Made by a program: the position numbers and the translations under genes. Below the pieces are notes generated by a model, which saw only the letters and a program-made list of their open reading frames with translations, had not been told where the DNA came from and did not search any database. 33,608 bases of DNA from Verrucomicrobiota bacterium (GTDB taxonomy: Bacteria > Verrucomicrobiota > Verrucomicrobiia > Chthoniobacterales > UBA10450), in the NCBI GenBank assembly GCA_003219465.1, contig QHOX01000170.1:1-33608 (forward strand), in the 5' to 3' direction. Below are positions 408 through 33,608 of the stretch, piece by piece; position 1 is the stretch's first letter, and the number at the start of each line of letters is the position of its first letter.

Positions 408-890
408 TCATCGCGCGGGCGGAATGTCAACGCGAACAGCCGCTGGGGAATGCTTTAGCTCCGCATGAAATTCATCCACGGAAATGATGTAATCCATTTT
501 TGCAATCTCCTGCTGCGTCAGCTGATTTGTGCCCTCGTGGTATATTCGCAGGAAATGGTCGTTATAGACCAGAGAAGCGATAAACACCGTATTCCATCCA
601 TTTGACCAGAATGGATCTGACCGGTAGGGCCATCCTCTCAGCAAGATCACGCTGCCTGGTGCTGGACGAAGATTCAACGAGCGGAGCGCTTGGATAACGC
701 GAAGCGCCTTCTGCCCTAAATTTAGCAAAATGGGAACGCGGTCAAAACGTCGGTTTTCCCATTGGGTGAAGATCGCAAGGCCAGATGCTGCCAGCAATGT
801 TGCAAACGCACGAAACATCGGCGGGGACATTTTGCCTGCGACAGCAGCCACGGCCGTGCCGATGGGGGCCCACTGGACACCATTCGCCGT
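408..890 (-). pseudogene. C-terminal fragment of polytopic glycosyltransferase-like membrane protein
   Basis: IFTQWENRRFDRVPILLNLGQKALRVIQALRSLNLRPAPGSVILLRG...FIASLVYNDHFLRIYHEG...DEFHAEL closely resembles the C-terminus of the ORF at 25345-26823 (VFTQWENQRFDRTRGLLNSGEKSLRVIQAFRSLALHPEPGSRILLR...). The N-terminal membrane domains are missing. Confidence 0.8.
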
Positions 891-3856: not shown

Positions 3857-4836
3857 TACAACAATTCGCTAACTAGCGATTTCTCTTCTTTTAGTTCCGC
3901 TACTGATGCGTTGATTTTCGCGCGGCTGAAATCGTTTATCGGAAGGCCTTGCACGATTTCCCATTTTCCGCCGCGCACACGGACTGGGAACGACGAGATC
4001 AATCCTTCCTCGACGTTATAACTTCCATCAGAACGAACGGCGACGCTGTGCCAATCGTCGCCCGGGGTGTCGTTGATTAGGGAGTGTACTGTGTCGACAA
4101 CCGCATTTGCAGCTGACCCGGCTGATGAAAGGCCGCGCGCCTTGATCACGGCGGCGCCGCGCTGTTGGACGGTTCTAATGAAATCTTCCTTCAGCCATTT
4201 CTCGTCGGCGATCACTTCGTTCGCGGGACGGCTGTCGATCTTCGCGTTGTAGAAATCTGGATACTGGGTCGAGGAGTGATTGCCCCAGATCGTCATGTTC
4301 GTCACGGAGGTGATGCTCACACCCGCCTTATGCGCGAGCTGCGCGCGCGCGCGGTTTTCATCCAATCGGGTCATGGCAAACCACCGCTCGCGCGGAATGT
4401 CCTTGGCGTTGTTCATCGCAATCAGACAATTGGTGTTGCATGGATTTCCAACCACAAGTACGCGCACATCGGCCGCGGCATTCTTTTGAATCGCCTGGCC
4501 TTGCCCGATGAAAATCTTGCCGTTAATCCCGAGTAGATCCTTCCGTTCCATGCCTGCCTTGCGTGGCACGCTTCCAACCAGCAGAGCCCAGTTCACGTCG
4601 CGAAACCCTTCATTGAGATCGGTCGTCGGTATCACCGATTCAAGAAGTGGAAACGCGCAATCATCCAGTTCCATGACCACGCCTTCGAGCGCGCCGAGCA
4701 CGGTAGGAATTTCGATCAAATGAAGACTAAGCGGCTGATCGGGCCCGAACATTTGTCCAGAGGCAATCCGAAACAGGAGCGCGTAACCAATCTGCCCTGC
4801 GGCGCCGGTCACAGCGACTTTAATCGAAGTTTTCAT
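3856..4836 (-). CDS. mdh: Malate dehydrogenase
   Basis: [31 protein letters not shown]...[16 protein letters not shown]...[14 protein letters not shown]...[14 protein letters not shown]. The likely start is ATG at 4834-4836; the open frame up to 4968 is repeat-derived. Confidence 0.95.
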
Positions 4837-5549: not shown

Positions 5550-8500
5550 ATGCCGCGGAATAACGAACTCAAAAAAATTCTTCTCATCGGCTCCGGTCCA
5601 ATCGTGATCGGGCAGGGCTGCGAATTTGATTATTCCGGTGTGCAAGCCTGTAAGGCACTGCGCGAAGAAGGTTACGAGGTGGTGCTGGTGAATTCGAATC
5701 CAGCCACCATCATGACCGATCCGGAATTCGCCGATCGAACCTATGTCGAGCCGATCACGCCCGAAGTGATCGAAGCGATTATGGAGCGCGAAAAACCGGA
5801 CGCGATTTTGCCCACCCTCGGCGGGCAAACTGCGCTCAATGCCGCAATGGAATTGAATCGGAACGGCGCGCTGGCGCGGCACGGCGTGAAATTGATCGGT
5901 GCTAACGCGCAGGCCATCGCGAAAGGCGAAGACCGTCAGTTGTTCAAGGAAGCGATGTTACGCATCGGCCTGGAAGTGCCGCGCTCTGGCGTCGCACGTT
6001 CGCTCGCGGATCTCGATCGCATCGTTGCTGAGATCGGAACATTTCCGCTGATCATTCGCCCGGCGTTCACTCTGGGCGGTACCGGCGGCGGGATCGCTTA
6101 CAACCGCGAGGAACTCGATCTGATCGCTGCGCGCGGCTTGGATCTTTCGCCAGTCCGCGAGGTGCTGATCGAAGAATCGCTGGTCGGCTGGAAAGAGTTC
6201 GAGATGGAAGTGATGCGCGACCGAATGGATAACTGCGTCGTCGTTTGCTCCATCGAGAATTTCGATCCCATGGGCGTGCACACCGGCGATTCCATCACCG
6301 TCGCGCCTGTGCAAACGCTGACCGACAAGGAATATCAAATGATGCGCGACGCGGCGTTCGCGGTTATTCGCGAGATCGGTGTCGAGACCGGTGGATCGAA
6401 CATTCAATTTGCTGTTCACCCTGAAACGGGCCACATGGTCGTGATCGAAATGAACCCGCGCGTGTCGCGTTCCAGCGCGCTGGCGTCAAAGGCGACAGGG
6501 TTTCCGATTGCGAAGATCGCGGCCAAACTCGCCGTCGGCTATACGCTCGATGAGATCAAAAACGACATCACACGCGAAACGCCAGCCTGCTTCGAGCCGA
6601 CAATTGACTACTGCGTGGTTAAGGTGCCGCGCTTTACGTTCGAAAAATTTCCGCAGGCAGACGCGACGCTTACGACACGGATGAAAAGCGTCGGCGAAGC
6701 GATGGCCATCGGGCGCACATTCAAGGAAGCGTTGCAAAAAGCGCTGCGCAGCCTTGAGATCAAGCGCTTCGGCTTGTTAGGCGACGGTGCGGATAAGGAT
6801 GTTGACCTCGAAACGCTGCGGTTAAAGCTGGCGATTCCGAACGCCGAACGGATTTTCTACATCGCGCAGGCATTTAAAAAGGACGCCTCGATTGATGAAG
6901 TTTACGAGCTTACAAAGATCGACAGGTGGTTTTTGCGAAACATTGCCGAGCTCGTCCAAGAAAGCGAGCGACTGCATGCCGACAAATCATTTCAATATTG
7001 GCTTTCCACACCGGGCGGGGACGATCCCGTTCACCAGAAAGATCCCTCTTTCGCCGCAAAACGATTTCGTGAATTGAAGCGGCTCGGCTTTTCTGATCGT
7101 CAGATCCTAGTGACAGCACACGGAGTTACGGATCGCGGGGCGATAAAGTGCGGCCAAGACGGTGTTCGTGTTCTTCGGAAGTCAGAAAATGTGATTCCGA
7201 CCTATCGGCTGGTCGACACCTGCGCGGCAGAGTTTGAAGCGTATACGCCTTACTACTATTCGACGTACGGCGACGAGAACGAGCGACGCGAGAGTGGCAA
7301 GCGCAAGATCATGATCCTGGGCGGCGGGCCGAACCGGATCGGCCAGGGCATTGAATTCGATTACTGCTGCGTGCATGCAGCGTTCGCCCTGCGTGAGCTT
7401 GGATTCGAAACCATCATGGTGAACTCGAATCCGGAGACGGTTTCCACCGATTACGACACCAGCGACAAACTCTACTTTGAGCCGCTCACCTTGGAGGACG
7501 TGCTCAACATTTACGACCAGGAGAAACCGGAAGGCGTCTTTGTCCAGTTTGGGGGTCAAACACCGCTGAATCTCGCCAGTGGATTGAAAGCGGCAGACGT
7601 CCCTATTCTTGGGACGCAGCCCGAAAGCATCGAGACCGCGGAAGACCGGAAATTATTCGCGGCCATGCTGGACAAACTTGGCCTGCGCCAAACTCCCAAC
7701 GGATCGGCCACAAGCACCAAAGAGGCCGTGGCGATAGCGAAGAAAATTGGCTATCCGGTGCTCGTTAGGCCAAGCTTCGTTCTGGGCGGGCGCGCGATGG
7801 AGCTCGTGTATACGGAGACGGATCTCAGACGCTACATGACAAGTGCGATTGAAGTAACGCCTGATCGCCCGGTGCTCATCGATCGCTTTCTTGAGGAAGC
7901 CATCGAGGTCGATGTCGATTGCATCTCCGACGGCGAGACCACCGTCATCGGCGCGATCATGGAGCACATCGAGGAAGCGGGCATCCACAGCGGTGACAGC
8001 GCATGCGTTATCCCGACATTCTCGTTGTCGCAAAAAGTTCTCGACGAAATTTCCTCCGCGACGAAAGCAATGGCGCGCGAGCTGAACGTGCGCGGTCTGA
8101 TGAACGTGCAATTTGCCGTGAAGGGCGACGACGTTTACGTGCTCGAAGTAAATCCGCGCGCTTCGCGGACTGTTCCGTTCGTCAGCAAAGCGATCGGCGT
8201 CCCGCTGGCAAAACTGGCAGCCAAAGTGATGACGGGAAGGTCATTGCGCGAACTCGGATTCACGAAAGAAATCGTGCCGAAACATTTCTCGGTGAAAGAA
8301 GCGGTGTTTCCGTTTCTGCGGTACGAGGGTTTGGATATTTCGCTCGGACCGGAAATGAAATCGACCGGCGAAGTGATGGGCATCGACGTCGATCTGGGCC
8401 TTGCCTATGCCAAATCGCAGATGGCTGCGCCGCCTCCGTTGCCGAAACGCGGAAGAGTATTTGTCAGCGTCAAAGACGCCGATAAGGAAGCGATCATTCC

Positions 8501-8852
8501 CGTCGCCCGCGAATTTCTCAAACTGGGCTTTGAAATTGTTTCCACCAGCGGAACGGCAGAGGCGCTAAGCAAAGCGAAGATCAAAGTGACCAAGGTTTTC
8601 AAGATTCACGAAGGACGTCCCAACGTGCTCGACCGCATCAAGAACGGCGACATCAATTTCATCATCAACACGCCGAGCGGTAAGATTCCGCGAGAACACG
8701 AAGTGGTTATTCGTAACGCCGCGCTAGCGGCAAAAATTCCGATCATGACCACGGTCCGCGCCGCGCTGGCCAGCGCGAATGGAATCCGCTCACTGCAAAA
8801 ACGAAAAGTTCAGGTGCGGAGCTTGCAGGAATATCACGCTTCGCGGCGTTAA
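5550..8852 (+). CDS. carB: Carbamoyl-phosphate synthase large subunit
   Basis: 1100 aa with duplicated ATP-grasp halves: [50 protein letters not shown] and [53 protein letters not shown]-terminal MGS-like domain. Confidence 0.98.
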
Positions 8853-23834: not shown

Positions 23835-24530
23835 TCAATTCTTGCTGGCAATCAAATAGACGTTTTTGCCGAACAGCCGGCCGAACACGAAGTCAAATGA
23901 TCTACTCAACGGCACAATGTAACGATCATAGAAATTCACAGCCCGCGCGCTCAAATCTCCGTTCTTGTTGCTGAACAGTTTGAAGCCCAGAGTGGCAAAG
24001 AAACCCAGTGAGTCTGCATAACGCGTTTTCCAAATAGTGAGCCCAGCGGAACGAGCAAGTCGTTCCAACTCCCGAGGGCGGTAACGGCGGTAATGTTTGA
24101 GCCTTTCGTCCAGACTCGTCCACAAACATTCAAAAGCTGGAACATAAATCAGCATTCGGCCGCCTCTTGCTAATTTTGTGGCAAGACGGCGAAAACTGGT
24201 CTCGTCGTCCTCAATATGCTCGAGGACATTTAGCGTGAAAATGAAATCAAACGAGCCATCTGGGACTTCGTTCAAGTCGTTGAATGTCAGAAACCCATCA
24301 CCAACCAGCCCGTTGGCCAGAAGCGCGTCAGGCTCAACGCAGACCACATCAATGCCCCTGTTTCGAAGAAGCTTCGCGAACGTTCCAATTCCAGCCCCAA
24401 AATCAAGCATGCGCGTACAATCTCCAGAATTGTCTAAGATGAGATCCAGCAATAGAGAATTATAGTTTGTCGCTCGGTCCAGCGTCTCTAAAACATCCAC
24501 CCCGGTATAGGTCAGCTGCGGAGTACTCAT
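23835..24530 (-). CDS. Class I SAM-dependent methyltransferase
   Basis: RMLDFGAGIGTFAKLLRNRGIDVVCVEPDALL...FDFIFTLNVLEHIEDDETSFRRLATKLARGGRMLIYVPAF. The likely start ATG 24528-24530 overlaps the GT2 stop as ATGA. Confidence 0.88.
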   Translation of the reverse strand: MSTPQLTYTGVDVLETLDRATNYNSLLLDLILDNSGDCTRMLDFGAGIGTFAKLLRNRGIDVVCVEPDALLANGLVGDGFLTFNDLNEVPDGSFDFIFTLNVLEHIEDDETSFRRLATKLARGGRMLIYVPAFECLWTSLDERLKHYRRYRPRELERLARSAGLTIWKTRYADSLGFFATLGFKLFSNKNGDLSARAVNFYDRYIVPLSRSFDFVFGRLFGKNVYLIASKN

Positions 24531-25225
24531 TTCTGGCGCCTTTGAATGTTGTATTTCACAATCGCATAGATAGCCCTGATTCCGTCTTTCCAATTGATCT
24601 TCTTGCCTTCCTTGTAAGTTCGTCCGCTATACGAAATTCCGACTTCATAAACGCGACAGCCCCTCTGCGCGAGCTTGGCAATAATTTCAGGCTCGACGCC
24701 AAACCGATCTTCTTCAAGCTCAATCGATTTGATGAGCGAGGCTTTGAAGGCTTTGTAGCCTGTCTCCACATCGGTCAGATTCAGATTCGTGAACATGTTG
24801 GAAAGCAACGTCAGAAACCTATTGCCGACCATGTGCCAGAAAAAAAGGACACGATGTGGTCGTCCGCCCATGAATCGGGAGCCAAAAACCGCGTCAGCTT
24901 TACCCGACATAAGCGGCTCAAGAAGTACAGGATAATCGTCGGGGCTATACTCGAGGTCTGCGTCCTGCACGAGGATCAGATCGCCAGTCGCAGCTGCGAA
25001 CCCGCTGCGCAAGGCTGCTCCCTTACCCCGGTTCACCGGATGATTAATAATTCGATCAACCATCGGCGCAACCTTGTCCCGGAGCAGAGTCTGTGTTCCA
25101 TCTTCTGAGCAATCGTCCACCACAATGATCTCCTTGTTCTCAAGCGGGGCATTGTGAACCGCCTCGACGATCTTTTCGATCGTATCCTTTTCGTTGTAAC
25201 AGGGGATTACGATTGAGACTTTCAC
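24527..25225 (-). CDS. GT2-family glycosyltransferase (dolichyl-phosphate mannosyltransferase-like)
   Basis: MKVSIVIPCYNEKDTIEKIVEAV...KEIIVVDDCSEDGTQTLL...GKGAALRSGFAAATGDLILVQDADLEYSPDDYPVLLEPL. Confidence 0.92.
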   Translation of the reverse strand: MKVSIVIPCYNEKDTIEKIVEAVHNAPLENKEIIVVDDCSEDGTQTLLRDKVAPMVDRIINHPVNRGKGAALRSGFAAATGDLILVQDADLEYSPDDYPVLLEPLMSGKADAVFGSRFMGGRPHRVLFFWHMVGNRFLTLLSNMFTNLNLTDVETGYKAFKASLIKSIELEEDRFGVEPEIIAKLAQRGCRVYEVGISYSGRTYKEGKKINWKDGIRAIYAIVKYNIQRRQK

Positions 25226-25290
25226 CTTTACACCCTGAGCGGGATTTCACTGGGCGAGGCACTCTGGCGCAATCTTGAGATAGCAATTGG

Positions 25291-25388
25291 CTGGAGAAAA
25301 GGAACAGCCGTGCTTGAGTGATAAGTTTGACATTCCTCGTCCGAATGCCTGCGCAAGTTATCAACATTAGCGGTGGGCGCCAGCACAA
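25291..25388 (+). repeat. Diverged direct repeat copy 1 of the uvrA 5' region (copy 2 at 27026-27123)
   Basis: Ungapped by-eye alignment at offset 1735: about 78 of 98 positions identical, spanning upstream sequence, the start codon and ~15-16 codons. Confidence 0.9.
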
Positions 25389-26823
25389 ACTCAGCGGACT
25401 GGATGTGGCCTGTGTGGTTCTGCTGCTGGCGTATTTCTTTCATTTTGCAATACCCGCGGTGGGGGCCGGATTTGGCGACGATGAAATGATGAACCTATAC
25501 TTGTATTGGTTGGCAGGTGCCTTCAAATCAATCCAGGCAAACCTCTGTTTTTGGTCGACGTTTCCACGGCCCGCTGGTGCGCTCTATTATCTGCCACTGT
25601 ATCACTTTTTTTTCCTCGATCCTCTACCCTACCGCATCGTTCAGATCGGCATACTTGCTGCCACAATCCCAATCTTCTTTTATCTTGTGCTGTTACTCTC
25701 TGGGTCGCGCGCTGTGGCGTTTCTGGTCGCACTGGCAATGTGCTACCACGGGCAAATGGCTAGTCTGGTCTTTACCGGCTCTTTCATCTACGACGTGCTG
25801 TGTGGTTTCTTTTATTTCGCGTCGCTGACTTATTACGTTTATATCCGCCAAAAAGGCCTAGCGCTGCGTCCGGGACAACTTGTGGTTTTTCTGGCGCTTT
25901 ACGTTTGCGCGCTGAATTCGAAGGAAATGGCAGTGAGTCTGCCGGTGATCGTGTTTATTTATGAAGCTCTCAAGTGCCCGCGGCTGCGCGACTGGAACGA
26001 GTTCGCACGGCGGAACTGGCGGGTGGCGATTCCGGCATTCGTCACCGCGCTCGTGACGGCTATTTACATTTATGGGAAATTAAATGGCGCTTATTCGCTG
26101 GCCAAATTGGAGGCGTATCGCCCGGTCTATTCGTGGCATCGATTCACACTCACGAACGCGCATTTTATCAATGACCTGCTTTATGATTCTGCATCGCGTA
26201 TTGGTCGGGCCATCTTAATCGCATGGCCGGTCCTGTTTTTATACGCGTTTTGGCGCCGGGATCGGCTGCTGCGACTAATGGCATTTTGGGTTGTGATCAC
26301 GCCGCTGCCGCTGGCGTTTATCCCAAGCCGCAGCGCGGCGATGTATTATATCGTGCTGTTGGGCTGGGCGACAATTTTTGCCGGGCTGGTGAGCGACTTA
26401 ATTGCATTGGCCGGCAAGGTGACCGCGCCCTCAGGGCCGAGAACAGCCATGCTATCGACGTGTGCCACGGCTGCTGTGGCGGTCGCCTTCGCTGTTTTCA
26501 CACAGTGGGAAAATCAGCGGTTTGACAGAACCCGCGGTCTGCTCAATTCCGGGGAGAAGTCGCTTCGCGTCATCCAGGCATTCCGTTCCCTGGCTCTTCA
26601 TCCGGAGCCGGGTAGCAGGATTTTACTGAGACCAGAAAAGCGCTTCTACCTAAACGACTACTACCCCCTGTTTGTCGCGTCGCTGGTCTGGAACGATCAC
26701 TCCCTACAAATATACGTGGAGGGTCAACCCCAACTCAGTCAGCACCAAGTCGCAAAAGTGGATTGCGTTGTTTCCTTTAATGAATTTCAAGCAAAGCTTG
26801 TCCCTGCTCCAGACCACTCCTGA
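25345..26823 (+). CDS. Polytopic glycosyltransferase-like membrane protein with UvrA-derived N-terminus
   Basis: MPAQVINISGGRQHKLSGLDV matches Uvr[22 protein letters not shown]. The rest is a polytopic protein with a GFGDDEMMN motif and a C-terminus paralogous to 408-890. Confidence 0.78.
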   Translation: MPAQVINISGGRQHKLSGLDVACVVLLLAYFFHFAIPAVGAGFGDDEMMNLYLYWLAGAFKSIQANLCFWSTFPRPAGALYYLPLYHFFFLDPLPYRIVQIGILAATIPIFFYLVLLLSGSRAVAFLVALAMCYHGQMASLVFTGSFIYDVLCGFFYFASLTYYVYIRQKGLALRPGQLVVFLALYVCALNSKEMAVSLPVIVFIYEALKCPRLRDWNEFARRNWRVAIPAFVTALVTAIYIYGKLNGAYSLAKLEAYRPVYSWHRFTLTNAHFINDLLYDSASRIGRAILIAWPVLFLYAFWRRDRLLRLMAFWVVITPLPLAFIPSRSAAMYYIVLLGWATIFAGLVSDLIALAGKVTAPSGPRTAMLSTCATAAVAVAFAVFTQWENQRFDRTRGLLNSGEKSLRVIQAFRSLALHPEPGSRILLRPEKRFYLNDYYPLFVASLVWNDHSLQIYVEGQPQLSQHQVAKVDCVVSFNEFQAKLVPAPDHS

Positions 26824-27025
26824 CTTCAATCTTTTATAGGCGGCGTCTACCGTCAGACTGCCTGCCACAGGTCGTTGAGACCAGTCGTGCGGCGGTCCGC
26901 ATCATCTCAAAACCTGCGCTTGGACAGGCTCGTCGCATTGGACAAGATTACGAGTAAGATTTTCATCTTCGCAACACAGACCGAGTTTCGCCGCCCCAAG
27001 CCAGTCCGCGGCTAACGCAACTCCG

Positions 27026-27123
27026 CTGGAGAAACGAAATGCCTGTGCTTGACTGATAGGTTCGACATTTCTCATCAGAATGCCTGCGCAAACAATTAAG
27101 ATTAGCGGCGCGCGTCAGCACAA
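27026..27123 (+). repeat. Diverged direct repeat copy 2 (native uvrA upstream/start region)
   Basis: See 25291-25388. Confidence 0.9.
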
Positions 27124-29980
27124 TTTGAAGAACCTCCACGTGGAAATACCGCGGGAGAAGCTGGTGGTGATTACTGGTCTAAGCGGCTCGGGGAAATCCT
27201 CGCTCGCTTTCGACACTCTGTATGCGGAGGGGCAACGGCGTTACGTCGAGAGCCTCTCCGCGTACGCGCGGCAATTCCTCGATCAAATGGAAAAGCCCAA
27301 TATCGATTTCATCGAAGGATTGTCGCCGGCGATTGCCATCGAGCAGCGCAGTGCCGGCGCTAACCCGCGATCCACCATCGCGACCACGACTGAGATCTAC
27401 GATTATCTGCGGGTCCTCTTTTCCGCCGTGGGTCAACCGCACGATCCGCTGACCGGCCGAGCTCTGACTCGCCAAACGCCTCAACAAATCGTCGATAAGA
27501 TTCTGGCGTACGAACCGGGCACCAAAATCATTGTGCTAGCGCCGCTGATCGAAAATCAGTCAGGCGAATTTCGGGACGTGCTCGAAAAACTCAAGCGCGA
27601 AGGGTTCGTTCGTGCACGAATTGACGCAGAGTTAGTGGAGCTGGATCGCCCCGAGCCGGTCCGACTCAAGAAACGCGAGCGGCACACCATCGAAGCGGTG
27701 GTCGATCGGCTGGTCATCCGCGATGGCATTCGCGTACGGCTGACAGATTCAATCGAAACGGCTCTGAAATGGGGCGACAACCGCATTGTCGTTTTGGGCC
27801 AGACGCCCCCTGCAAGCGACAATTGGGCAGAATGCCGCTACTCCACAGATTACGGGAACGCTGAAACCGGCTTCAACTTAGGCGAGCTGACGCCGAGACA
27901 TTTTTCGTTCAACAGCCACCTCGGCGCTTGTCCTGCTTGCCACGGTTTGGGAACACAACTTGAGTTCGATCCGGAGCTGATGATCTCCGACCAAACCAAA
28001 ACGTTGGCCGAAGGCGCAATCACACCCTGGCGTCGCGGCACAAAACGCATGCGAGTCTACTATCGGCATCTGCAGGATGCTCTGATCAAACACTTTAACG
28101 TGAACGATGACGTGGCGTTCGCCGATTTGCCTGACGCATTCAAAGCCGCCCTTTACTTCGGCACGAATGGGGAGCCGATTGAAATGGAGTTTGGCGGCAA
28201 CGGCGAAAAGAAAATCACAAAACCGTTCGAGGGACTGGTGCCGCAAATGCAGCGGCTTTATGAGCAAACCGAGAGCGAGTTCACGCGCAATCGCATTCGA
28301 GCATTCATGACACGCGAGACATGCAGGGTCTGCGGCGGCGCAAGACTTAAACCGGAAATCCTTGCCGTCACAATCAAGGACCGACCCGTCTCCGCCGAGG
28401 CTACGGCGGGCAGGCAGCGCCGCGAATTGAACATCCATCAGTTCAGCCAGCAAACCGTGGAAGACGCGCTGCAATTCATTGCCGATCTCGACCTGACCGA
28501 ACAGCAGGAGGCGATCATAACAGAAGTTGTCCGCGAGATTCGCTCGCGTCTGCAATTTCTCTCCGAAGTCGGGCTAGGTTATCTCACATTGAATCGCGAA
28601 AGCGGCACGCTTTCCGGCGGCGAAGCGCAACGGATACGACTGGCGACACAAATCGGGTCAGGCCTGGCAGGCGTTCTTTACATTCTGGACGAACCGAGCA
28701 TCGGTTTGCATCAGCGCGACAATGCACGTCTGCTCGGAACACTGCGAAAACTGCGCGATCTTGGGAATTCCGTCATCGTGGTCGAGCACGACGAAGAAAC
28801 GATTCGGGCTGCCGACCACATCATTGATCTCGGTCCGGGCGCAGGGCCGCGTGGTGGTGAGATTGTGGCAGAGGGAACTCTCGACGAAATCATGCGCGCG
28901 AAAAATTCTTTGACTGGCGATTATCTCTCCGGACGGGCGCGCATAGCCGTTCCAAAACAGCGCGCTCAGCCGCGGCATGATGGCTGGCTTACAGTCGTCG
29001 GCGCAAGTGAAAACAACTTGAAAGCAATCGATGTCTCATTTCCTCTCGGTTGCCTAACGTGTGTGACTGGTGTTTCGGGCAGCGGCAAATCGACTTTGGT
29101 CGACGACATTCTGCGCCGCGCGCTTTTCCGGCATTTCTATAATTCGAAAGACAAACCGGGCGTTCACAAAGCGATTCGCGGCCTGGAACAGATCGACAAG
29201 GTAGTAGTAATCGATCAAAACCCGATCGGCCGGACGCCGCGGTCGAACCCGGTTACATACACCGGCGCGTTCACCCCGATACGCGAACTGTTCGCGCAAT
29301 TACCAGCAGCGCGGGTCCGCGGTTACGACGCAGGTAGGTTCAGCTTCAATGTTAAAGGCGGTCGTTGCGAGAATTGCGAGGGCGGAGGCTTGATCAAAAT
29401 CGAGATGCACTTCCTGCCCAACGTTTACGTCGAATGCGAGGTTTGCCGAGGCAGACGCTACAACCGCGAGACGCTCGAGATCACTTACAAAGGCAAGAAT
29501 ATCGCGGATGTGCTGGACCTAACTGTTGACGAAGCTGCGCGATTCTTCCGCAATGTGCCGACCATCGCGGAGAAGCTGAATTCACTGCTCGATGTTGGCC
29601 TGGGCTACCTGCGACTCGGCCAGGCTGGAACGACCCTTTCCGGCGGCGAAGCCCAGCGGGTGAAACTTGCCACAGAGCTTGCCAAAAAAGCGACCGGTCG
29701 CACTGTCTACATTCTCGATGAACCGACGACCGGGTTGCATTTCGCCGATATTGAAAAATTACTGGAGGTGTTGATGAAGCTCCGCAACACGGGCAACACG
29801 ATCGTGGTGATTGAACACAATCTTGAGATGATCAAGTGTGCTGACTGGATCATCGATTTGGGTCCTGAAGGAGGCGAACATGGCGGCGAGGTGCTGGGAT
29901 CGGGATCGCCTGAGAGAGTCGCCACTATTGCGGCCAGCCATACCGGGCAATACTTACGAGCAATGCTGGAGAGACGATGA
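27080..29980 (+). CDS. uvrA: Excinuclease ABC subunit A
   Basis: 966 aa; [133 protein letters not shown]. Confidence 0.98.
28385..28426 (+). repeat. Palindromic repeat-like in-frame insertion inside uvrA
   Basis: cccgtctccgccgaggctacggcgggcaggcagcgccgc contains ccgccg-aggcta-cggcgg. It encodes [13 protein letters not shown], extra relative to other UvrA proteins; gctacggcgggcaggc resembles the element upstream of mdh. Confidence 0.65.
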
Positions 29981-30606
29981 GACACATCGGACACTTAGGT
30001 CTTATATATGTGATCGGCGTACTCAGCCAATTCGCTCGCGCCGATACCTCTGCTGACCTCGCCCAGGCGAGCGGAGCGCTTTCAGAAGGCGTGCCGGAGG
30101 TGGCGGTCGTGCGGTTGCAGTTGTTACTAAACAAAAATCTGCCCGAATCAGAATGGCGCGCCGTCGCTGAAAAACTTGCGGAAGCGCAAGTGGTCGCAAA
30201 CGAACCAGAGGACACTCTGGTTCTGTTGACCGACGCCAGGTTGCATGACTTGCCATGGACGAAATTCTGGCGTGCTCAGGCGCTGGCCAGTCTGCACCGG
30301 TGGGCCGACGCGTTGCCGCTTTATGAGGAATTGACTGACGAAAGTTCCCCGTTTCAGAGAGCAGCTATTTTTGGGGCCGGCGAGACGTTGCGCGCGCTAG
30401 GTAAATGCCAGGACGCTCTGAGAAAATTCATTCTGCTTGCGCATGATAAAAAATGGGGGGCGCGAGCGCAGGTGCGAGCGGCTGAGTTGCATATTGAATT
30501 GGGCAACGCTCCCGAGGCACGCCGGCTTTTGGAGCAGTTGAGTTGCAGAACGGCGCGAGCGGCGCGTGTTACGCGGGCGGCTCGAACTGATTTCGCACCG
30601 GCCTGA
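29977..30606 (+). CDS. Secreted/periplasmic TPR-like protein, N-terminal part of a frame-split gene
   Basis: ATGA overlap with the uvrA stop; signal-like [22 protein letters not shown]; helical repeats WAVALPLYEELTD-like, ending in a low-complexity out-of-frame tail TARAARVTRAARTDFAPA. Confidence 0.65.
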   Translation: MRHIGHLGLIYVIGVLSQFARADTSADLAQASGALSEGVPEVAVVRLQLLLNKNLPESEWRAVAEKLAEAQVVANEPEDTLVLLTDARLHDLPWTKFWRAQALASLHRWADALPLYEELTDESSPFQRAAIFGAGETLRALGKCQDALRKFILLAHDKKWGARAQVRAAELHIELGNAPEARRLLEQLSCRTARAARVTRAARTDFAPA

Positions 30607-32419
30607 ACGAGCGATCGGGATGTTTCAGGCGATTCTGAAGAGGCCGGAGGGAACGCCTCATCCCATTCTGCTGGCTGCGCTTTTCGGCATCGCTGAAGCG
30701 CATTTGCAACTCAAGACGCCGGAGACCGGAGATGATGTACTAGAGCGTTTCATCGATCGTAACCACGCAGACCCTGATCTCCCGCTGATATTTGCAAAAC
30801 TCGATGAGCTGTATCGCGCCGAACACAGACCGTCGCGCAATGAACTTGAAAAGTGGGTGCGCAGGCCGGAACAGCCGCGGCGAACATTCGCGCGTTGGTA
30901 CCTTGCACGACTAGAGATTCACGCAGGTCGCAGAGAGCGGGCCCGCCAGTTGTTTACGGATCTGCGGCGCACAGGGGTCAACTCCCCGGCCATTGCGCCT
31001 GCTCTGTTCGAGTTTGCCGAATTTGAAATTGACGACGGCCGCTTTGATGAAGCGATAGCTATCCTAGACGATGCGCGCTTGCTGCGACCCGACCCGGCGT
31101 TATTGACCCGGATCGCTTTCTTATCGGCGCAAGCGCAGTATTTAGCGAGGCGTTTCGATACAGCAACGGCTGCCTTCGAACAAATCGCGCAGGGCGATTC
31201 GCCCTGGACGAAAGCAGCGCTGTTTAACGCATCCAGCGGCTGGTTGCAGGTCGGTAATCACACTCGTTTTATTGCCGACTACAGCCAACTCGAAAAGCAG
31301 GGCGGCGACGAACAATCACGGGCTGATTTGCGATTGGAGGAAGGTTTGATGCAGGCGGCTAAAGGCGACAAAAAAGCCGCGGCATCGTTGCAGCGATTCA
31401 TTCACGATTTTCCAAAGAATCCGCGAGTATCAGAAGCTTGGGTCGGCCTCGCCGAGTTGGCGTTTCATTCCTCGCCACCGCGTCTGGAAGAAGCACGTAA
31501 GAATCTGGATCGCGCAATCGAGACTGGACCGACCGATGCCGCCGTCGAACGCGCCGATTATCTCCGCATCTGGGTTGAAGAGGCAGCTGGTGGAGACGAA
31601 TCGAAAGTGATTGCGCTCGCGAAGCGATTCTTGGAGCGCCATATCGAGTCGCCATTTGCTCCTGAAGTCCGAATGAAGCTGGCGGAGCTTTATTACCGGC
31701 GTGAGGATTTCGCCAATGCGCAGACCCAGTTTGAAATCATCGCACAACAGAATCCGAATGACTCGCTCGCGGAAAGAGCGCTCTTTTTCGCGGGGGAATC
31801 GACCATGTCGAGCATGGGCGAGCACACACTCGATCGGGCACTCGTTTTATTTGATCAGGTCGTGCAGAAGAAAGGCGCAATGCGTTGGGCAGCGCGCAAC
31901 GAACAAGCCGTAATCGAGCGCAAACTTGGCAAGCCCAATGACGCACTCACGCTGTACGATGAGGTGTTAAAGAGCGACGCAGGCGCATCTGAAAAACGCG
32001 AGGCGCTTTGCGGAAAAGGCGACATTTTCTTCGAGGGTGGGACCAGTGACCCCGCCAGTTACGAGCGTGCCATTGAGGCCTACGATCAATTGGCTGCTGA
32101 TAAGGTGGGCTCGATTCATTGGCGTAATCAGGCGCTGTTTAAGAAGGGGCTGTGCCTGGAAAAGAAAGGCGATCGAGTCGGTGCGCTGGCGACGTTCTAT
32201 AAGATTCTAGAGGACGAATCGCGACCCGGTGAGCGCCGCGAGTTGTTCTGGTATTACAAGGCGGGGTTCAATGCTGCGCGATTGTTGGAGGAAGATTCCA
32301 AGTGGGAATCTGCCGTCGCGATCTATGACAAGCTCGTCGCAGCCGGAGGCAGTCGCAGCGAGGAAGCAAAGGCGCGTCTGAACAATATTCGGCTCGAACA
32401 TTTTCTTTGGACTGACTAA
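30566..32419 (+). CDS. TPR-repeat protein, C-terminal part of the same frame-split gene
   Basis: 617 aa; repeated TPR motifs (FANAQTQFEIIAQQNPNDSLAERALFFAGE, NDALTLYDEVLKSDAGASEKREALCGKGD, SWAVAIYDKLVAAGG-like). Continuity with the upstream ORF needs skipping 1 nt near 30541-30565. Confidence 0.75.
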   Translation: MLRGRLELISHRPERAIGMFQAILKRPEGTPHPILLAALFGIAEAHLQLKTPETGDDVLERFIDRNHADPDLPLIFAKLDELYRAEHRPSRNELEKWVRRPEQPRRTFARWYLARLEIHAGRRERARQLFTDLRRTGVNSPAIAPALFEFAEFEIDDGRFDEAIAILDDARLLRPDPALLTRIAFLSAQAQYLARRFDTATAAFEQIAQGDSPWTKAALFNASSGWLQVGNHTRFIADYSQLEKQGGDEQSRADLRLEEGLMQAAKGDKKAAASLQRFIHDFPKNPRVSEAWVGLAELAFHSSPPRLEEARKNLDRAIETGPTDAAVERADYLRIWVEEAAGGDESKVIALAKRFLERHIESPFAPEVRMKLAELYYRREDFANAQTQFEIIAQQNPNDSLAERALFFAGESTMSSMGEHTLDRALVLFDQVVQKKGAMRWAARNEQAVIERKLGKPNDALTLYDEVLKSDAGASEKREALCGKGDIFFEGGTSDPASYERAIEAYDQLAADKVGSIHWRNQALFKKGLCLEKKGDRVGALATFYKILEDESRPGERRELFWYYKAGFNAARLLEEDSKWESAVAIYDKLVAAGGSRSEEAKARLNNIRLEHFLWTD

Positions 32420-32520
32420 AGCATTCCTCGCGGAGGCTGGTGGAAGCGGGCTGGCCTAAAAATACGAAGTGGGTCGGGGAATTAGCTTGCTTAAATTCGC
32501 AGCAGGATCAAAATCACGAC

Positions 32521-32796
32521 ATGGGAAATGGAACCAGACTGAGTCGCGTGTGCGGCTGGTCGGTCCGATCTGCAATCGGGATCTTCGCCCTTGCATTCTG
32601 CGCATCAGCATTCGCTAATGATCCGAGCAAGAATGTCGTAGCGCGGCCCGCGCAACCACTGCCTACCACAACGACAAAGAAAATTTGTTACGTGGTAACG
32701 GGTGGCTCGCGCATTCCGCAGCGATGCGATCGTCTCTCTGCAATTCCGACCACTGCTCACGCGATGGATATTTACGGTCATCGTCCGGGCCTATAA
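32521..32796 (+). CDS. Small secreted protein of unknown function
   Basis: MGNGTRLSRVCGWSVRSAIGIFALAFCASAFANDPSKN signal peptide; 91 aa with KKICYVVTGGSRIPQRCDRLSAIPTTAHAMDIYGHRPGL. Confidence 0.5.
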   Translation: MGNGTRLSRVCGWSVRSAIGIFALAFCASAFANDPSKNVVARPAQPLPTTTTKKICYVVTGGSRIPQRCDRLSAIPTTAHAMDIYGHRPGL

Positions 32797-32926
32797 TAAT
32801 AGAGTCCGACGATGCTCGCGGGTGATTGCGTGCTGCCAGCACGGCAGCGCGGAGGGAAGATCATATTTTTTCTGCCGCCAGCCCATTCCTGCAGATTCAG
32901 CCTGAACCGCCCAGCGAAATTTAAAG

Positions 32927-32954
32927 CGACTTCGCGAAAACCTTTACGAAGTCG
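32927..32954 (-). terminator. Hairpin at the 3' end of the acyl-CoA dehydrogenase gene
   Basis: cgacttcg-cgaaaaccttta-cgaagtcg; 8-bp perfect stem overlapping the stop codon. On the minus strand it is followed by ctttaaattt. Confidence 0.4.
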
Positions 32955-33608
32955 TCTTGGCGGTCCCGCTCGTTAGGCAAGATTTTGCTGCTGCGATCAC
33001 GGCTTTGTCGTCATTATTTGTCAGCCCCGCCAGGAAACCACGAATGCGGCGGAACGATTGACGCAAAAATAAATCTGCCGCTAAATGATCGGGCGGCGGC
33101 AGCCCGCCATTTCGCCTCGCGAACTGAGTTTCGCTATCGATGCGGCTTAGGACACAGGTCGAAGCGAAAAGATCCATCGCCGCGTTCGCGATCCGTTCCT
33201 GGACAAGCTGCATGTCTAGAATTGGCTCACGATACGTAATCAACGCGCGATTAACGGCAAAATTAAAATGCCGGATCAACCGGCCGAGTTGCCGCGCGTG
33301 GGCGCGAAGCTGTTCGCTTTGCACGGGCACTTCAGGAACACGAACCGTCGCGCTGAGCCGGTTCTTTCCGGCCGCCCACGCTTTGCTCACACCATCGCGC
33401 GACGGCTTCATCATCGTGTCGTAAATTTCCTTGAACTCCATTCCCGGACCGCGCATCCCGACTAGCGCGATGAACGAAGTGAGCACTTCATTGGCGCCCT
33501 CGCCGATTTGGTTGATCCGCGCGTCGCGCAACATTCTCTCCAACGGCAGATCGGTGAAGTACGCCGAGCCGCCGTAAATCTGGAACACGTCGTTGATGCA
33601 CTCCCAGA
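32944..33608 (-). CDS. Acyl-CoA dehydrogenase, C-terminal part (5' end lies outside the window)
   Basis: DVFQIYGGSAYFTDLPLERMLRDARINQIGEGANEVLTSFIALVGMRGPG is a typical ACAD signature; extended C-terminal domain. Confidence 0.92.
   Translation of the reverse strand, partial: WECINDVFQIYGGSAYFTDLPLERMLRDARINQIGEGANEVLTSFIALVGMRGPGMEFKEIYDTMMKPSRDGVSKAWAAGKNRLSATVRVPEVPVQSEQLRAHARQLGRLIRHFNFAVNRALITYREPILDMQLVQERIANAAMDLFASTCVLSRIDSETQFARRNGGLPPPDHLAADLFLRQSFRRIRGFLAGLTNNDDKAVIAAAKSCLTSGTAKTTS

Follow-up and report, generated by a model that had tools for sequence, protein, structure and literature searches.

In this genus of Chthoniobacterales, new genes have probably been inserted repeatedly at the start of uvrA by a homologous crossover combined with an illegitimate join, which left displaced copies of the uvrA start upstream as scars. 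We analysed one such site in a window of 33,608 nucleotides (the whole stretch of contig QHOX01000170.1 under study) and in a comparison set of 35 genomes of the same genus. All genomes compared are metagenome-assembled genomes (MAGs), and their soil source was inferred from titles.

The window contains an intact uvrA gene (27080 to 29980, plus strand, 966 amino acids) with the UvrA_inter, UvrA_DNA-bind and ABC domains of Pfam, preceded by a leader (27025 to 27079, plus strand) that is conserved across the genus. Leader and first codons recur further upstream as a direct repeat. Positions 25290 to 25388 match 27025 to 27123 over 99 nt without gaps, at 80% identity and a spacing of 1735, which bears out the ungapped repeat of about 80% identity that an earlier note on this DNA had picked out at that offset. 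It was the sole long direct repeat detected by a repeat search within 24500 to 28500 and reached an E-value of 1.2e-18 in a self-blastn of the window. The displaced ATG at 25345 is aligned on the uvrA ATG at 27080, and the translations of the open reading frame behind it (492 amino acids) and of UvrA agree with those in the note. The upstream copy comprises the displaced leader, which forms the untranslated part of the scar (25290 to 25344, plus strand), and the displaced start codon with codons 1 to 16 (25345 to 25392, plus strand). According to the uvrA alignment, the latter form the N-terminus of a chimeric polytopic membrane protein with a predicted GT-C fold (F5, 25345 to 26823, plus strand). 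Against a profile of the genus uvrA 5' region, 25285 to 25393 scored 93 bits (nhmmer). Between the GT-C gene and uvrA lie an older, eroded uvrA-start scar (26841 to 26926, plus strand; nhmmer 16 bits, local score 46 compared with a maximum of 29 in 300 shuffles) and the 5'-end remnant of a second copy of F1, a GT2 family glycosyltransferase (26930 to 26966, minus strand). The other F1 gene (24527 to 25225, minus strand; Pfam PF00535, E 2e-34), the neighbour of uvrA before the insertion, is now separated from the scar by the old F1-uvrA spacer (25226 to 25289, plus strand). Elsewhere in the window, a truncated relative of the GT-C gene is located near the left end (408 to 854, minus strand; 53% identical to residues 351 to 489), and a further direct repeat, unrelated to uvrA, connects 1 to 270 with 3863 to 4134 (~78% over 272 nt).

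Relatives supply two types of empty site, GT2-uvrA and phoB-uvrA. The first type is present in two genomes. F1 starts 119 nt before uvrA in G004, and the corresponding distance to the displaced ATG of the window is 120 nt; the sister genome G001 has F7-F1-uvrA without interruption. Window positions 23837 to 25391 align to -1501 to +46 of G001, with 80% over 25143 to 25344 (G001 -195 to -1), and 26930 to 33608 align to -152 to +6523, with 81% over 26930 to 27079 (G001 -152 to -1), F1 start included; these alignments also identify the old spacer and the F1 remnant. Taken together, they place G001 -152 to +46, which surrounds a single uvrA start in that genome, twice in the window, flanking 25392 to 26929. 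The two window copies end at 25391 and begin at 26930, respectively, and the stretch common to both is longer than the one seen by eye.

At the other type of site, phoB adjoins uvrA in G009 with 184 nt between them (0.18 kb), and the distance amounts to ~0.8 kb in G013, 1.1 kb in G019, 9.3 kb in G002 and ~20 kb in G015, G029 and G028. The interval carries genes for methyltransferases, GT2, PMT_2/GT-C-like and GSCFA proteins, with uvrA-start scars at several joints. The order is phoB-scar-F46-uvrA in G013 and G022 and phoB-scar-F1-uvrA in G019; in comparison to G009, the left part of all three extends to about +44 to +60 in uvrA and the right part resumes at about -58. When G002 is compared with the same site in G009, the left part ends at -45. 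No scar adjoining phoB was found in the large clusters of G015, G029 and G028.

A profile search with the uvrA 5' region revealed the uvrA leader and first codons at about 20 displaced positions in the 35 genomes. The repeat picked out in the earlier note is not unique but one of these scars at a recurrent insertion site. Two copies together with a decayed GT-C start were found in G003, three in G013 and two each in G014 and G021, and others in G007, G008, G010, G015, G019, G022, G027, G028, G029 and G031. On contigs with uvrA, every displaced 5' copy lies upstream of the gene and in the same orientation, and a few copies are located on contigs without uvrA. With an internal uvrA segment, no displaced copies were detected in the 35 genomes beyond one marginal match and one fragment at a contig edge. 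Direct repeats counted on random contigs of the window's genome (G000) were mostly tandem or paralogous and do not represent a clean control.

Several scars show other arrangements. In three genomes a methyltransferase gene (F17) lies behind a uvrA scar that consists of the leader only, or nearly so (L098 ~5242, minus strand; L068 ~9077; L088 ~4664, minus strand), which is possibly a second case of leader capture, without fusion. A scar in G003 with uvrA codons 1 to 52 continues in frame into an unrelated open reading frame (L080 16482 to 16321, 162 amino acids in total). In G013 (C21; L159 6489 to 8530 after reversal), uvrA-start scars lie on either side of a PMT_2-type gene (F18) on a contig that lacks uvrA, which would fit a unit that has moved away from uvrA. 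In G027 (L087), 5407 to 5578 matches 8402 to 8504 and 1354 to 1423, where short segments of two genes, one for a methyltransferase (103 nt, 92%) and one of GSCFA type (70 nt, 98.6%), have been copied next to each other; illegitimate joins in the cluster are thus not limited to uvrA.

The scars and the uvrA starts of the same genomes have separate ancestries. For 20 scars, compared over ~100 nt each, the uvrA start of the own genome ranked between 3 and 30 of 31 as nearest relative and was first for none of the 20. The window scar is 78% identical to its own uvrA start (rank 23 of 31) and up to 88% identical to those of other genomes. Up to the joint, the scars of the window and of G029/G015 are ~88-92% identical to the best-matching uvrA starts, as expected for a fresh scar part before the joint if the uvrA start of the recipient is where such units recombine into the genome. 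The uvrA gene of the window may itself be a mosaic: the sister genome G001 ranks 12th of 29 for nucleotides 0 to 100 and first for 250 to 900, although this break is only suggestive, since nucleotides 0 to 210 give a tie and the exact crossover was not located. Between G000 and G003, dS is 0.38-0.46 for the GT-C gene compared with 1.59 for uvrA, while the values for G000 and G001 are 1.06 for the GT-C gene, which is interrupted by a contig break in G001, and 0.70 for uvrA. This contrast indicates that the GT-C gene moved horizontally and, together with the ranking of the own uvrA starts, that the scars are not plain duplications. Hence, the insertion of a foreign coding sequence behind a second uvrA start, as proposed in the earlier note, holds with its in-frame chimeric N-terminus, whereas a simple duplication of that start does not. 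The unit of scar and F5 has the same joint in G000, G001 and G003 at different positions of the cluster, and likewise the unit of scar and F6 in G014 compared with G029/G015. These sequence comparisons demonstrate the empty sites and the scars, the different origins of the two 5' ends and the horizontal transfer of the GT-C gene.

The GT-C cargo is fused in frame and therefore starts at the old uvrA ATG. Its reading frame begins with MPAQVINISGGRQHKLSGLDV, the first 16 to 21 codons being uvrA codons; agreement with the uvrA alignment falls after about +48 and the resemblance fades by about codon 21. The 492-amino-acid protein matched no Pfam family. An AlphaFold model (AF2, ten relatives in the alignment) had a mean pLDDT of 76, and Foldseek matched it to OST/STT3, ArnT, Pmt4 and PglB structures in the PDB (E 7e-6 to 1e-3, TM ~0.5). 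By this predicted polytopic fold the protein belongs to the GT-C superfamily, with a putative role in sugar transfer. In the model, residues 1 to 13 are disordered (pLDDT below 50) and the first membrane helix begins at residue 18, right behind the uvrA-derived part. For most homologues from the genus and from Terriglobia, the alignment starts near residue 18, and the preceding residues are unrelated; among them, only those of G001 and G003 carry the uvrA-derived start, decayed and with the same joint. A start peptide natural to the GT family, the objection named in the earlier note, is ruled out by its absence from the genus and Terriglobia homologues. Compared with G003, codons 22 onwards (dN 0.106, dS 0.44) show purifying selection on the body of the gene, while the first 21 codons (dN 0.39, dS 1.03) are drifting, which suggests that the uvrA-derived tail is tolerated but not conserved. 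The gene is presumably transcribed from the old uvrA leader and may show uvrA-like expression. A simple sigma-70 scan of 25200 to 27200 found no promoter in either leader, and our literature search returned no usable paper on a LexA/SOS motif of Verrucomicrobia for the leader and nothing on uvrA in Udaeobacter.

If genes enter by a homologous crossover and an illegitimate join, the uvrA start would be the growing edge of a variable glycosyltransferase/methyltransferase cluster that extends from phoB to uvrA. Incoming genes would be carried on DNA with the donor's uvrA start. One end would be fixed by homologous recombination within uvrA and the other joined with little or no homology in the recipient's leader or first codons, anywhere from near -45 to codon 50 and often near codon 16. 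The uvrA gene of the recipient would stay functional with its 5' end exchanged, and the former leader, ATG and first codons would persist upstream, where they form the scar joined to the cargo. Since joins further upstream would delete the neighbour and joins without the donor start would break uvrA, survivors would be expected to carry scars. The scars may later act as homology handles, as a unit of scar and gene is bordered on either side by sequence homologous to uvrA, so that ordinary recombination could bring it into other genomes. We infer this two-step route, an additive form of homology-facilitated recombination and the best fit among the explanations considered, from the joints and ancestries described above. 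The lack of a scar adjoining phoB in the large clusters of G015, G029 and G028 counts against it.

The main rival, which we regard as unlikely, is site-specific integration, in which an unseen recombinase would insert cassettes and an element-borne 5' copy would regenerate uvrA, as SXT-type elements do at prfC. It would be consistent with the position of many scar ends, as about 7 of 16 lie at +45 to +50 of uvrA, after CAGCACAATCTC, and with the start of the current uvrA block, which appears to lie near -60 in independent insertions. Examples of the former are L085 12950 to 13059, the window scar at 25285 to 25393 and L160 9816 to 9665. An excess at +45 to +50 is unlike a purely illegitimate join, although decay and a conserved block may exaggerate it, and the border near -60 may just be the limit of the conserved leader. 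Against this rival, the junctions at the scar ends lack extended homology and vary in position, with other ends at -45, +5, +30, +60, +70, +105, +140 and +155, and no constant crossover core like that of an integrase island or integron was found. Furthermore, no motif past the joint is common to the scars except where the cargo is identical, a search for tyrosine recombinases (PF00589) gave no match in or beside the element or on any uvrA-cluster contig, and the cargo consists of single glycan or methyltransferase genes. It is similarly doubtful that genes are acquired preferentially at the uvrA start, owing to an unrecognised recombinase or to a bias in DNA uptake and repair that favours codon 16. 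If it were, genes would be fed singly behind a working and perhaps damage-responsive promoter, and the ageing scars would record their order.

Alternatively, the 5' region of uvrA could have been duplicated in tandem in situ, with cargo placed between the copies later. This would suit the arrangement of the copies as direct repeats with the same orientation and the similarity of CAATCTC near +48 to CAATTTC near -62, where slippage could occur. It is nevertheless improbable, as no scar has the uvrA start of its own genome as nearest relative and the cargo has been transferred horizontally. We assign an equally low probability to an unequal crossover in a G001-like ancestor (F6-scar-F5-F7-F1-uvrA), in which an older scar would have recombined with uvrA, with later losses leading to the order in the window. 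The GT2 remnant and the eroded scar upstream of uvrA fit such a lost F7-F1 stretch, but the GT-C gene is nearer to that of G003 than to that of G001, contrary to the uvrA relationship. An assembly or binning artefact is highly improbable: the MAG consists of 413 contigs with 5.5% contamination, yet the same fusion joint occurs in the separately assembled G001 and G003, the two copies have diverged by 20% and scars are present in many genomes.

Recurrent insertion by crossover and illegitimate join would mean that a variable cluster of glycan-type genes can expand by addition next to a housekeeping repair gene that stays intact, and that the order of gene gain is readable from the ageing scars. 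It also offers a natural case in which a start codon and an N-terminal tail were taken from an unrelated housekeeping gene, with the tail readable in three genomes. Thanks to the scars, the way in which uncultured soil Verrucomicrobia gain genes can be tested directly in comparisons of close relatives.

O-antigen and capsule loci carry variable surface-polysaccharide genes between housekeeping flanks. As at the uvrA site, sugar-transfer genes vary between fixed flanks and recombination in the flanks shuffles them; unlike in those loci, one flank, uvrA, repeatedly leaves behind copies of the uvrA leader and start. Integrons acquire genes in order at one end, which is the pattern proposed here as well, but with variable scar ends and with neither a tyrosine recombinase nor a constant recombination core found. 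The nearest published model concerns type VI secretion system (T6SS) effector genes in Vibrio cholerae, whose sequential displacement was proposed to occur by homology-facilitated illegitimate recombination (Kirchberger 2017, PMC5361080). On the route proposed here, both systems combine a homologous anchor with a non-homologous join in repeated events, leftovers of earlier states accumulate beside a fixed gene, and the arrays spread by ordinary recombination. In V. cholerae, the leftovers are immunity genes at the effector locus; here they are broken copies of the 5' end of uvrA, a housekeeping gene for DNA repair, the inserted genes are of the glycan and methyltransferase type, and one of them now starts at a start codon left over from uvrA. 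In T6SS islands of Pseudomonas aeruginosa, effectors are swapped by homology-facilitated illegitimate recombination, with breakpoints in a conserved neighbour gene and imprecise ends on the other side, as proposed for uvrA (PMC11751169); that process is replacement rather than additive growth, and the parts of that study considered here do not describe start-region scars. The uvrA site therefore differs from the published T6SS cases in three respects: another anchor gene, other cargo and a captured start codon.
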